Below, piece after piece: positions 13,425-36,269 of a DNA stretch of 36,773 bases (the first letter of the stretch is position 1; each line of letters opens with the position of its first letter). Below the pieces are notes generated by a model. The model had not been told where the DNA came from and searched no databases. It saw only the letters and a program-made list of their open reading frames with translations. Position numbers and translations under genes: made by a program. This DNA comes from Bacteroidaceae bacterium (GTDB taxonomy: Bacteria; Bacteroidota; Bacteroidia; Bacteroidales; Bacteroidaceae), in assembly GCA_024680695.1 (NCBI GenBank), contig JAILBW010000228.1, positions 1 through 36,773 of the forward strand, in the 5' to 3' direction.

Positions 13425-13476
13425 AGGATAAATCTGCCAGTCCAGAATTAGCCGCTTTGCGGAGGTGCGCACTCTT

Positions 13477-13542
13477 CTAAGAGTGTGTTCCTGTTGGTCT
13501 AAGAGTGTATTCCAACTTGTCAAAGAGTGTGTTCCTGAGCCG
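13477..13542. repeat. 22-bp-period tandem repeat, 3 units, core CTAAGAGTGTGTTCC
   Basis: ctaagagtgtgttcctgttggt / ctaagagtgtattccaacttgt / caaagagtgtgttcctgagccg start at 13477, 13499 and 13521. Confidence 0.85.
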
Positions 13543-16953: not shown

Positions 16954-17031
16954 CAGCAAGCAGGAGGAGATGCGACAGCAAGCAGGAGGAGATGCGACAG
17001 CAAGCAGGAGACGATGCGACGGCAAGCATCG
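16954..17031. repeat. 22-bp-period array, core CAGCAAGCAG, about 3.5 units
   Basis: Cores at 16954, 16976, 16998 and 17020 (degenerate); unit CAGCAAGCAGGAGGAGATGCGA. Confidence 0.9.
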
Positions 17032-18541: not shown

Positions 18542-18551
18542 GTGTGCTCTC

Positions 18552-18785
18552 CTGCTTGCTGTCGCTTTGCCTCCCGCTTGCGCAAGTAATCGTCTCTGCT
18601 TGCTGTAATTTTGCCTTCCGCTTGCGCAAGTAATCGCCTCTGCTTGCTGTTGTTTTTCCTTCCGCTTGCGCAAGTAATCGCTCCTGCTTGCTGTCGCTTT
18701 GCTTCCCGCTTGCGCAAGTAGTCGCTCCTGCTTGCTGTAGTTTTGCCTTCCGCTTGCGCAAGTAATCGTCTCTGCTTGCTGTAGT
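18552..18785. repeat. 44-bp higher-order tandem repeat (2 x 22-bp half units), about 5.3 units
   Basis: ctgcttgctg at 18552, 18596, 18640, 18684, 18728 and 18772. On the minus strand each 44-mer is CAGCAAGCAG-N12 then GCGCAAGCGG-N12. Confidence 0.95.
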
Positions 18786-18986
18786 TTTTTGAGAAACAAA
18801 GTGAGGGAATGAGTGCTTCGTACGGAGAAAAGTTCTGCTTTTCGCCCCATTTTAGTCTCCAACGAATGCCCATTCGATGGCTTTGTGGCGGATTTACAAA
18901 CCATATCCAATCGTAAAACGGCGGACAGATGGCAGGAAGAAAGCCTGTTAGCGCTTGACTGCCTAACGATCGGGTCGAGGGCATCG

Positions 18987-22035: not shown

Positions 22036-22153
22036 CGAATTTTTTCTCTATAATGCGGCATAAAACCTTTAATTTATTTCAGCCAAGCCGGAATATTGCG
22101 AAAAAGCGAAATGTAAAGAAGACTGCAACATTCCAAAGGGCCCAAAAACACCA

Positions 22154-22275
22154 CAGCAAGCAGACGCTCCCGCGACAGCAAGCAGACGCTTCCGCGACAG
22201 CAAGCAGAGGCTCCCGCGACAGCAAGCAGAGGCTCCTGCGGCAGCAAGCGGAAATTTCCGCTACTGCAAGCGGTA
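22154..22275. repeat. 22-bp-period array, core CAGCAAGCAG, 6 units
   Basis: Cores at 22154, 22176, 22198, 22220, 22242 and 22264 (last two degenerate); unit CAGCAAGCAGACGCTCCCGCGA. Confidence 0.95.
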
Positions 22276-31298: not shown

Positions 31299-31694
31299 TA
31301 GTTCGGACGGGATCTTCACCAGTTTCTTCCCGTCGGAGCGTTTCACCACGTTGCGTCCCTCGAAGCGCAGCAGCCAGGTGGAGTCGCTTTGCTGCGTGAG
31401 TGTGATGCGCTGTGTCTCGCTGCCCAGGTCGTTGGATACGCGCAGAGTGGCCTGTCGGTCGCTCTTGATGTCGAACGAGGTGATGCTCCACACTCCGTAG
31501 ATGTTGCCTCCCAGATAGCCGTTCATGGGGCCGAACATCTCCATGCGTGGCACAGTGATGCTCTCCTCGTACAAGTCCATTTCCAGCGTAATCTTCTCTG
31601 CCTCGCAGTTCAGGCACATCTTCCACGGTCCCTGTGCTGCCACGCTTCCTGCTATGGCGAGCAGCGCCATCCACATCGTCTTTCTCTTCTTCAT
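31251..31694 (-). CDS. Small secreted hypothetical protein
   Basis: Signal peptide MKKRKTMWMALLAIAGSVAAQ (trimmed from track start 31736). 3' end overlaps the antiporter 3' end by 48 nt. Confidence 0.65.
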   Translation of the reverse strand: MKKRKTMWMALLAIAGSVAAQGPWKMCLNCEAEKITLEMDLYEESITVPRMEMFGPMNGYLGGNIYGVWSITSFDIKSDRQATLRVSNDLGSETQRITLTQQSDSTWLLRFEGRNVVKRSDGKKLVKIPSELLMKKDPEKVGSVGEK

Positions 31695-31731: not shown

Positions 31732-31896
31732 CGCAAAAACGTTTTGTTGGCAAAGGAAATAACATTTTTTTAGATTTCAAGGGTTCAAAGGTTCATGCTC
31801 CTCTTGATGACTTTGGCCTTGTTCCCGCAGCAGTCCATCGTGATTGACATAGAGAGCAGGGCGCAAAAAACGAAAAATCTCGCTCGAAATTTGCAA

Positions 31897-32141
31897 AACA
31901 GCCTACATGCCTACATAAAATCTCTTGAAACCCGCATGAATAAAGGGATTGCGACGAATCCAAGCCTACATAAAGCCTACATAAGCCTACATAAAACCTA
32001 CATTCGGACACCCTCCCAATTAATGTATGAAGTATGTAGGCATCATGTAGGCTTTATGTAGGCTTTATGTAGGCTTGAAATTTTGCAACTTTTTGTACTA
32101 CAGAAATTTACAGTCAAATTATGTAGGCATGTAGGCTGTTT
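31897..32141. repeat. Nested long inverted repeat built from 11-bp CCTACATAAAG units
   Basis: Outer arms AAACAGCCTACATGCCTACATAAAAT (31897-) and AATTATGTAGGCATGTAGGCTGTTT (to 32141). Inner arms CAAGCCTACATAAAGCCTACATAAGCCTACATAAAACCTACATT (31961-32004) and its near-reverse complement (32022-32077). Confidence 0.9.
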
Positions 32142-32197
32142 GGCCTTTTTCAAAATAAAATTGCAGCAAAACAGGCCTAACATTTCAGCGAAAACTT

Positions 32198-32300
32198 GCG
32201 CAAGTAAAGGCGATTACTACAGCAAGCAAGGGCGGTTGCGACAGCAAGCAAAGGCGGTTGCGACAACAAGCAGGAGACGATACAACAGCAAGTAAGGGAT
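32198..32300. repeat. 22-bp-period array, core CAGCAAGCAG variants, 5 units
   Basis: Units start at 32198 (gcgcaagtaa), 32220, 32242, 32264 and 32286. Confidence 0.9.
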
Positions 32301-32548: not shown

Positions 32549-35500
32549 ATGCAGAATTCGTTGCGATTTAGAGTGTTGCTCTCGCTGTTCCTTACTATAT
32601 GGGGAGGCATATTGACATCTGCGAATGCAGAAGACACGCAAATGGTTCTTTTCCATGAGACTTTTGGAGATAACCCAGGTTCGGTTCGTGAGTGGAATGA
32701 CTCTTACAGCGTGAAGTCTGGCGTCAGTGCTGTTTATGCTGGCGTTACTGGTTACACCATTTCGAATGCCAAGCAAGGGAAGAACACGACGGGCTCGACG
32801 CTGTCGGGTCTGAACCAAAGCAGTCAGGGGACTGACGCCTACATAATAATCGGTCCGTTGAATGTGGCCTCCTACAACTCGCTGACACTTACCTATCAGT
32901 GGAAGGCAGCATCCATAAAGGAGACGTATTCCACCTCCCTGTTCTATGCAACCAGTTCTGCTGGGACATACACCGAGGTGAGCGGCACAGGCACTGGAGC
33001 CACGACCTTCGTGGAGCGCAGCTACTCCTTGCCTGCTGAGGCACAGGTGAGTACGCTGTACTTGAAAATCGTGTTCAATACCTCGAATTCTCAGGCCATC
33101 ATCGACGAGGTGGAGCTGCGAGCAGGCACAGCAACGGCCACGTTCGAAGACCACAGATTTGCTGGTACGTTCAGCCTGTATTCTGGTGCGCTTACTGAGG
33201 GCGACTATGTGATTTGCTACAACGGCGGTGTCATGAACACTACGTTGGATAACGGCAGATTGCAGTATGAGGAAGTACAGCCGTCGAACGTCCTCATCAC
33301 CAATCCGAGTCAAGACATTGTCTGGCACATTACTCAGAGCGGAGACTACTGGACCATCTACAACGCCGCCGCTGGCAAGTACGCAGCAAGCACAGGCGCT
33401 GCAAATAAGGCTCAGCTACTGGCCAGTGATGCAGACGACAAGGCGCTGTGGAGTGTGACGGCTGGCTCGGCTGGCTCGGCAGCCTCGACGTACGATTTTA
33501 CAAACAAGCAAAACTCAGCCAACAGCGTCAATGCCACGCTGCGACGCAACGGCACGTACGGCTTTGCTTGCTATGCGACAGGTACAGGCAGCGCACTGAC
33601 CCTATACAGGTTGGCAGACGACACATCAGGCGATTTCGACTACTATCAGGCTGCCGATGGGAAGACGGGTGCAGCCCTGAAGACGGCAATGTGCGGCATC
33701 ATTTATGACCACACGGAACTGGGCTACGACAACCTTTGGGAGGCCTATCAGACCACCGACGTGCGAAGCGACGGCAAGATATGGGACATGTACTCCAACA
33801 TCACCAACTACGACCCCTACAGCGGCCCACACAACAATAGCTCAGAGGGCAGCGGCTTCAACCGCGAGCACTCCTTCCCCAAAAGCTGGTTTGGCGGCGT
33901 GATGCCCATGTACACCGACCTCCACCATTTGTATCCCGTCGATGGAAATATCAATACGCGACGCTCCAACTATCCGTATGGAGAGACCGACGGCGAGGCC
34001 TACAAATCGACCAACGACTTCAGCAAGCTTGGCACCTGCACCTATCCTGGCTACGAGGGCACTGTCTTCGAGCCGGCCGACGAGTACAAGGGCGACCTCG
34101 CGCGTACCTATTTCTATATGGTGACCTGCTACGAGGAGAAGCTGCCCGACTGGTTCGCGAACTATGCCTCTACGGAGGTGGTGTATGTCATCGACGGCTC
34201 CACCTATCCAGGCCTGCAGGCTTGGCAACTGGCGATGCTGATGAAGTGGGCGAAGAACGACCCTGTGAGCGAGAAGGAGACCAACCGCAACAACACAGTC
34301 TTTGCCAAGCAGGGCAATCGCAATCCCTTCATCGACTATCCGGGCTTGCAGGAATATATCTGGGGATCCTTGACTAACTCGGAGTTTAGCAACGACAACT
34401 ACCTGCAGCCCGTCTATATGAGTTTCAGTCAGGTTGAGACTATGGCTGCTGTTGGCGAAGATTTCGTGGAACCGACGCTGACAACCAATCCCGCAGGTCT
34501 GACCGTCACTTACAGCAGCAGCGATGAAACGGTGGCAATCGTAGATGCCGTCACTGGTGAGATGACTCTTGTAGATGATGGCACCGCTACCATCACCGCT
34601 ACGTTTGCCGGCAACGACAGCTACAACGTCGGCACGGCTTCGTATAGGCTGACCGTCGGCGAGCCTTCGTTGGTCTATGGGCAGAAACTGCTGTATGAGG
34701 GAATGAGCAAATATTCAGGAAACGCTGACGCAACGAATGCTATCACGAACCAATATGCAAACCTCGACTGCAAGACCTGGTCGACGCTCGAGAAGATATA
34801 TGCCGGAGGAGGCGGCTACGCAAACGACGGCTGCCTAAAGTTCGGCACAACCAGCGGCGCAGGCTCAATGACATCGGGTCCCATCGCACTGACGGGCAAA
34901 GCCACGCTGACATTCTATCTGAAGCAATATGGCAGCGATACTGGTGTCAGGCTGAACGTCGCTGTGACAGGTGCGACAGCCGACGCCACACAATTTACGC
35001 CAGCCAGCGACTGGACACCCTGCGTCGTCCATCTCACCAATGCGACGGGCGCTGTGACCATCACGCTGTCAACCAGTTCGAAACGTGCCTATGTGGACGA
35101 AATCACTTTAATCAGCAGCGGCCAGTTCGAGCTCGCCAATGGTGGCGATAATGTCGAGAACATCTCCGCTGCAGCTGCCAATACAGCCGCAGTCGGCTGC
35201 ACGTTCGACGTCACCCTGCAGGGCCGCACACTCTACAGGGACGGCGCGTGGAACACACTCACCCTGCCGTTCCCCCTCTCAGCCGAGCAGATTGCCTCCA
35301 GCCTGAGTGGCGCTGAAATCCGCACGCTCAGCAGCGCCTCGTTCGCCGATGGCACGATGACGCTGGAGTTCACGCCAGCGACGGGCTCCGAAGCCGTCAC
35401 CAGCATCGCAGCCGGCACTCCATACATCATCAGGTGGGACGGCGGAAACGACATTGTCAATCCGACATTCACTGACGTGACCATCAGCAGCGAGACGCAC

Positions 35501-35923
35501 CCAGTCATCATCGACGACATCATCACCTTTGCCGGCACCTACGCAGCACAGACGTTCGACGTGGAAAATCGCAGCCTCCTCTTCCTTGGCAGCGCGAACA
35601 CGCTCTACTACCCCCAGAGCGGCGCCACCATCGGAGCCCAGCGCGCCTACTTCCAGCTGGCCGACGGGCTTACAGCTGGCGACAATGACAGCGCCGTCAA
35701 GCACATCCTCCTGAACCTCAGCGACGACGAGACAGGCATCGAGATGGTTCAGTGGTCTATGGCCGATGGCCGATGGTCAATGGATAAAAATGTCAACGGT
35801 CAAGGTCCAACGGTCAATGGAAGGAATGGTCAATGGTACGACCTGAGTGGACGTAGGCTGGATGGCAGGCCGACCGTGAGGGGTGTGTACGTCGTGAATG
35901 GCCGCAAGGTAGTCGTGAAATAA
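32549..35923 (+). CDS. Secreted endonuclease I-family (His-Me finger) nuclease with Ig-like domain and T9SS-like C-terminal tail
   Basis: FNREHSFPKSWFGG...DLHHLYPVDGNINTRRSNYPYGE; PTLTTNPAGLTVTYSSSDETVAIVDAVTGEMTLVDDGTATITATFAG; ends WYDLSGRRLDGRPTVRGVYVVNGRKVVVK. Confidence 0.88.
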   Translation: MQNSLRFRVLLSLFLTIWGGILTSANAEDTQMVLFHETFGDNPGSVREWNDSYSVKSGVSAVYAGVTGYTISNAKQGKNTTGSTLSGLNQSSQGTDAYIIIGPLNVASYNSLTLTYQWKAASIKETYSTSLFYATSSAGTYTEVSGTGTGATTFVERSYSLPAEAQVSTLYLKIVFNTSNSQAIIDEVELRAGTATATFEDHRFAGTFSLYSGALTEGDYVICYNGGVMNTTLDNGRLQYEEVQPSNVLITNPSQDIVWHITQSGDYWTIYNAAAGKYAASTGAANKAQLLASDADDKALWSVTAGSAGSAASTYDFTNKQNSANSVNATLRRNGTYGFACYATGTGSALTLYRLADDTSGDFDYYQAADGKTGAALKTAMCGIIYDHTELGYDNLWEAYQTTDVRSDGKIWDMYSNITNYDPYSGPHNNSSEGSGFNREHSFPKSWFGGVMPMYTDLHHLYPVDGNINTRRSNYPYGETDGEAYKSTNDFSKLGTCTYPGYEGTVFEPADEYKGDLARTYFYMVTCYEEKLPDWFANYASTEVVYVIDGSTYPGLQAWQLAMLMKWAKNDPVSEKETNRNNTVFAKQGNRNPFIDYPGLQEYIWGSLTNSEFSNDNYLQPVYMSFSQVETMAAVGEDFVEPTLTTNPAGLTVTYSSSDETVAIVDAVTGEMTLVDDGTATITATFAGNDSYNVGTASYRLTVGEPSLVYGQKLLYEGMSKYSGNADATNAITNQYANLDCKTWSTLEKIYAGGGGYANDGCLKFGTTSGAGSMTSGPIALTGKATLTFYLKQYGSDTGVRLNVAVTGATADATQFTPASDWTPCVVHLTNATGAVTITLSTSSKRAYVDEITLISSGQFELANGGDNVENISAAAANTAAVGCTFDVTLQGRTLYRDGAWNTLTLPFPLSAEQIASSLSGAEIRTLSSASFADGTMTLEFTPATGSEAVTSIAAGTPYIIRWDGGNDIVNPTFTDVTISSETHPVIIDDIITFAGTYAAQTFDVENRSLLFLGSANTLYYPQSGATIGAQRAYFQLADGLTAGDNDSAVKHILLNLSDDETGIEMVQWSMADGRWSMDKNVNGQGPTVNGRNGQWYDLSGRRLDGRPTVRGVYVVNGRKVVVK

Positions 35924-36037: not shown

Positions 36038-36269
36038 CAGCAAGCAGGAGCATTTTCTTTTATTGGTGTCCGGTAAAGTCGGCCTGAAAGGCCATTAAGC
36101 TGATAGCTTTCTGCCCCCTTTGGGGCGTTCCAAGCCCCTGTCAATCACATTTTGCTCTGAATGCCGATGGTTAGGAGGGTGCAGGAGATGATGAAACAAT
36201 TTTACCTGACAGCAATAATTTTCTTCAGCAAGCAGGAGTGTTTTCTTCAGCAAGCAGGAGCACTTATTA
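36038..36269. repeat. 22-bp-period array (CAGCAAGCAGGAGNNTTTTCTT), 3 units, interrupted by an insertion
   Basis: Units at 36038-36059, 36226-36247 and 36248-36269. Confidence 0.85.
36060..36217. mobile_element. MITE-like 158-bp insertion
   Basis: Imperfect TIR tattggtgtccggtaaag (36061-36078) versus reverse complement of 36200-36217 tattgctgtcaggtaaaa (15/18). Flanked by 8-bp duplication ATTTTCTT (36052-36059, 36218-36225). Confidence 0.75.

Follow-up and report, generated by a model that had tools for sequence, protein, structure and literature searches.

A two-tier CCTACAT palindrome in a Bacteroidaceae genome as a probable solo derivative of iteron islands linked to VapE and HU-HIG genes

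A large palindrome lies between two divergent genes in the 36,773-nucleotide stretch of Bacteroidaceae DNA analysed here (the window), in agreement with the initial annotation. One gene, which starts near 31694 and runs along the minus strand, encodes a small unassigned protein, and the other an Endonuclease I protein on the plus strand (32549-35923), which is large, carries a Big_2 domain and belongs to a family that is multi-copy in the genus, with 12 matches in the same genome. The palindrome has the two tiers first described for it, except that the left outer arm starts one base earlier, at 31896. Its outer arms (AAACAGCCTACATGCCTACATAA) occupy 31896-31918 and 32119-32141, within a longer pair (31886-31918/32119-32151) of 33 nt that is 88% complementary. 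Its inner arms, at 31961-32004 and 32022-32077, include a perfect pair of 24 nt (31961-31984/32054-32077). CCTACAT occurs 17 times in the 36.8-kb window compared to an expected 2.97 ± 1.72, a number reached in 0 of 100 shuffles, and 12 of these sites are packed into 235 bp at the palindrome. Their starts (31902, 31910, 31965, 31976, 31986 and 31997 on the plus strand; 32034, 32045, 32056, 32067, 32121 and 32129 on the minus strand) bear out the tandem arrays of about 11-bp period that had been proposed.

From left to right, the element (hereafter, island) begins with a left block (31814-31900) common to several other copies in the same genome. There follow on the plus strand an outer doublet (GCCTACATGCCTACAT, 31901-31916; two sites, 8 bp apart), a spacer with a weak dyad consensus (31917-31963; 47 nt, 46-48 nt in measured relatives) and an inner array of four CCTACAT at 10-11 bp (31964-32003). 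A 30-nt middle (32004-32033) replaces the longer, two-palindrome middle of full-length relatives. Beyond it, in opposed orientation on the minus strand, are the right inner array (32034-32073; four sites, 11 bp), the right spacer (32074-32120; 46 nt as counted) and the right outer doublet (ATGTAGGCATGTAGGC, 32121-32136), and then the right block (TGTTTGGCC to ACTTGCGCAAG, 32137-32199). The left spacer was considered as a CRISPR repeat and this was rejected; its core, GGGATTGCGAC, is confined to islands in this genome. Tandem repeats of 22 bp, twice the iteron period, follow the island directly on the plus strand (32200-32292), as they do after most other copies. Repeats of this AGCAAGCAGGAGNCGATGCGAC type, some in arrays with CTTGCGCAAG palindromes, occur throughout the window (13476-13537, 16954-17028, 18549-18789, 22153-22271, 32200-32292 and 36219-36260) and the genome, both after islands and free of them.

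A search across the genome returned about 18 island copies, some of them partial. This count is approximate, since the assembly is a draft in 235 contigs, estimated as 83% complete, and many copies sit at contig ends. Most are 84-94% identical over approximately 260 bp, spacers and loop included, and three types of left block are found among them. The middles of the window copy and its genome mates measure 30-41 nt and contain neither of the two palindromes. In this genome the right block is found in full only beside islands, and would therefore be part of the amplified unit. Judged from sequence, it is the shortened island together with its right block that has been amplified to about 18 copies. 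In two copies (L023, at the end of contig C52, and L026, at the end of C150) the island middle is inverted relative to the others, which may be either a true inversion or an assembly artefact. One copy (C89:1499-1780) adjoins a BT4734/VapE gene, whose product is 76-83% identical to proteins of the CCTACAT class over 469 residues; the contig edge cuts it before the C-terminus and leaves the F-X-KIG residue discussed below outside.

Relatives from the genus are mostly without the element, and in the loci retrieved for Endonuclease I matches among 60 of them, none close enough for orthology, no island with the layout of the window copy was present. An exact search of public genomes with GCCTACATAAAGCCTACATAA returned 63 stretches, mostly from rumen Prevotella, Xylanibacter and unclassified Bacteroidales, the named genomes carrying a few islands each. 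The architecture computed from these relatives is rigid: a CCTACAT doublet (8 bp), a 46-48-nt spacer, an 11-bp inner array and the middle, and then the mirror image. Adjacent sites of like orientation are separated by 560 gaps, the 8-bp doublets left out, and 553 of these fall within one base of a multiple of 11 bp. Full-length middles contain two 18-bp palindromes, AATTCTC(T/G)AGAGAATT; of 36 start-to-start distances, 32 measure 65 bp and three measure 66 bp. Middles are only mildly AT-rich (GC about 0.37, and 0.41 in the flanks), while the loop of the window copy has a GC of 0.43. Further short palindromes, some with a 22-bp period (AAAGATAGTCTTT, AAAAGTAGCTTTT), were seen in or beside the full-length islands L058, L062, L073 and L185. 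No DnaA boxes were found in the islands, and a DnaA-dependent origin was rejected on that account. A simple longest-ORF rule, applicable to 36 relatives, gave 18 with divergent, 11 with tandem and 7 with convergent flanking genes; a promoter role argued from divergent orientation was dropped because of this mixture.

When the genes that neighbour the island in the 63 relatives were clustered, two protein families recurred, the BT4734-like/VapE primase-helicases (PF08800, PF05272) and HU-HIG (PF18291), with no recurrent integrase among the clustered loci. A gene for one or both adjoins the island in 11 of the 63 relatives, and in six the island lies between the two, divergently transcribed. The genes after HU-HIG vary and are defence-like, with HsdM, a DUF1016/YhcG nuclease, PDDEXK_4 and Fic among those inspected (L086:1977-5259, L076:5262-6635, L052:3833-4672). 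PF08800 genes number up to 14 per genome among 15 genomes, and the island-bearing VapEs form one group of the tree (support 91/88). No island-clade VapE of more than 60% identity was found on phages or plasmids, where all matches fell below 60%, and none of the viral contigs searched carried the iteron pair.

The ATPase domain of VapE matches PDB 7PDS (E 1e-9), a protein whose annotation notes similarity to D. nodosus vapE and which we take to be the SaPI5 Rep helicase. The primase active site looks dead. Motif I of the AEP domain reads E-x-N and not D-x-D in every island-linked VapE in which the region is present, departing from hhhDhD/E, and D-x-D was seen in distant paralogues only. One further VapE, from strain D31d, is missing residues 85-274, the primase region. 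An AlphaFold model of VapE (mean pLDDT 34) was discarded as fold evidence.

At the loci of close VapE paralogues the island plan is unchanged but the iterons differ, being AACTACAT, ATGACAT, TCGACAT, CCCTACA and TCTAC, and several of these loci carry the same central palindromes. Within the C-terminal motif F-X-KIG, the residue X is Q or H at all 13 loci with GCCTACAT and R or K at all seven with AACTACAT (20 loci that are not fully independent; Fisher 1.3e-5); it was chosen after viewing the alignment of the first loci and held in a later sample. On a protein tree built without the VapE C-terminal region, the AACTACAT class requires at least four independent changes, and a single clade was rejected (p-AU 2e-42). 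Residue and iteron both differ within each of the sister pairs L058/L169 and L052/L275. Identity of the VapE C-terminal region is 0.73 within iteron classes and 0.49 between them, whereas neither the ATPase (0.89 within, 0.86 between) nor HU (0.69 and 0.68) tracks the iteron, and HU was rejected as iteron reader for this reason. Since residue X and iteron switch together, repeatedly, the simplest reading of this computed co-switch is that the VapE C-terminal domain would be what reads the iteron, although some of it could be due to recombination moving both ends together. Together with the 11-bp phasing and the fixed spacers, it strongly supports the multi-site protein target that had been listed among the possible functions.

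It was also suggested that the palindrome could act as a cruciform or a long RNA hairpin. A transcribed hairpin or extruded cruciform, serving as structured RNA, terminator or roadblock, would account for the very stable fold predicted on both strands (-118 and -129 kcal/mol, z -13.9 and -15.1), but any such palindrome would give that. Conservation of complementary arms in relatives, the point on which the initial reading had been staked, was upheld in part: opposed arms are kept in nearly all copies, but their lengths are not matched. Left and right arrays show no correlation in length (rho -0.03, n = 45) and are equally long in only 19 of the 45. It is because the two vary independently that a hairpin is unlikely as the selected trait. 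Moreover, left and right spacers are not complementary to each other, no convincing covariation or compensatory changes were seen (covariation in a spacer mini-hairpin, striking in L098 and L101 taken singly, was absent across the set), no Rfam covariance model matched, flanking genes take any orientation, and the iteron class changes along with a protein. We therefore consider a structural nucleic-acid function very improbable. A MITE- or REPIN-like miniature element, with a palindrome kept for its own transposition and CCTACAT as transposase sites, would fit the dispersed copies, their common flanking blocks and mixed gene contexts, and many dispersed intergenic palindromes are indeed what islands share with REP/REPIN and MITE families. 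However, REP/REPIN sequences are tied to RAYT or another transposase, and neighbour clustering gave no recurrent transposase gene beside the elements; the island is instead tied to VapE, which its geometry and iterons track across species. No target duplication was seen by eye at the ends of the copies, and two solo copies in X. ruminicola, described below, resemble relics of VapE loss rather than fresh insertions. A mobile element of this kind is thus distinctly unlikely.

Autoregulation offers a third explanation, in which the island would be only a divergent operator controlling the VapE and HU promoters, and solo copies would be stray operators. At six loci a VapE promoter -7 box, TA(C/T)CTTTG, does lie 50-53 bp outside the outer doublet. 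Nevertheless, the size of the island, its two opposed 11-bp arrays and its central palindromes 65 bp apart exceed what an operator needs, and solo islands persist without VapE or HU, beside genes in any orientation. We regard a purely regulatory role as unlikely.

Our preferred reading, to which we give a probability of about 0.75, is that the island is a double-stranded binding array resembling a SaPI/PICI origin and read by the VapE C-terminal domain. The parental island would present two opposed sets of 11-bp-phased double-stranded sites between divergent VapE and HU-HIG genes, a flanking pair that belongs to the BT4734-like AEP (PF08800/PF05272) and HU-HIG (PF18291) families known as neighbours in Bacteroidota. 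We infer that VapE binds the iterons directly, via its C-terminal winged-helix-like domain, probably sitting as two opposed oligomers on DNA bent by HU-HIG, as SaPI/PICI Rep does at origins. PICI origins have an AT-rich region flanked by two iteron sets (PMC6092414), and in SaPI Rep and Cch2 iterons are read by the C-terminal domain (PMC7581432). Given this two-set layout, the C-terminal reading and the ATPase homology, the island most resembles such an origin or an initiator-loading site.

In the island and the SaPI/PICI origin alike, two sets of short iterons surround a central region, and the SaPI/PICI Rep, a VapE-like self-loading helicase, shares with VapE a homologous ATPase domain and specificity in the C-terminal domain. 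A primase-helicase gene adjoins the SaPI/PICI origin as it does the parental islands and the C89 copy, but not the window copy. On the other hand, the SaPI/PICI origin lies immediately 3' of rep, whereas the island is 5' of VapE, between the divergent VapE and HU genes. Unlike those origins, the island has an 11-bp phase, outer doublets, two palindromes 65 bp apart and dispersed solo copies; its loci have a degenerate primase motif, and integrase, capsid and terminase genes were not noticed there. The SCCmec helicase Cch2 and its putative origin offer a similar case, as the C-terminal domain binds direct repeats in the neighbouring intergenic region, but these are few and short, in contrast to the two long opposed arrays of fixed geometry in the island.

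An origin-like opening step is the least certain part of the mechanism, because the primase motif is degenerate, and we propose an active origin role only tentatively, at somewhat less than even odds. Also counting against a plain origin are the only mild AT-richness of the middles, the lack of DnaA boxes and the failure to find island-clade VapE above 60% identity on phages or plasmids. It is also possible, if less likely than not, that a chromosomal ex-replication protein, its primase dead and its helicase motor intact, uses the island together with HU-HIG in a role other than copying a mobile element, such as chromosome organisation or the detection or blocking of incoming replicons. Specificity switches would then keep loci mutually blind, and solo islands would be decoys or anchors.

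With neither the two central palindromes nor neighbouring VapE and HU genes, the window copy is most likely a solo, internally shortened derivative of the iteron island. A possible history for some solo copies is offered by the position downstream of dnaK, where X. ruminicola D31d and Ga6B6 carry an island preceded by what appears to be the 3' end of a VapE gene, while the same site in genome G488 holds a complete VapE-island-HU unit with AACTACAT iterons. From this comparison of a VapE remnant with a full unit, some solo islands are computed to be probable relics left by VapE loss. The site after dnaK in Prevotella (L223, L103) has VapE-island contents that differ per species, apparently with other motifs too (L203, L210), and is a possible hotspot. 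Solo copies may be extra binding sites or inert.

To our knowledge, BT4734/VapE and HU-HIG genes have no tested function. The literature searched held no description of an island, cis-acting site or iteron code for them, and a search with the iteron and palindrome strings gave no match on bacterial repeats, as judged by title. Through the island, these two families, multi-copy in rumen Prevotella genomes, would gain a cis-acting partner. They would also gain a one-residue specificity rule, in which Q or H reads GCCTACAT and R or K reads AACTACAT, that is directly testable. Finally, a prominent repeat of this genome would be explained, and there is a warning here against annotating stable palindromes of this kind as hairpin RNAs.
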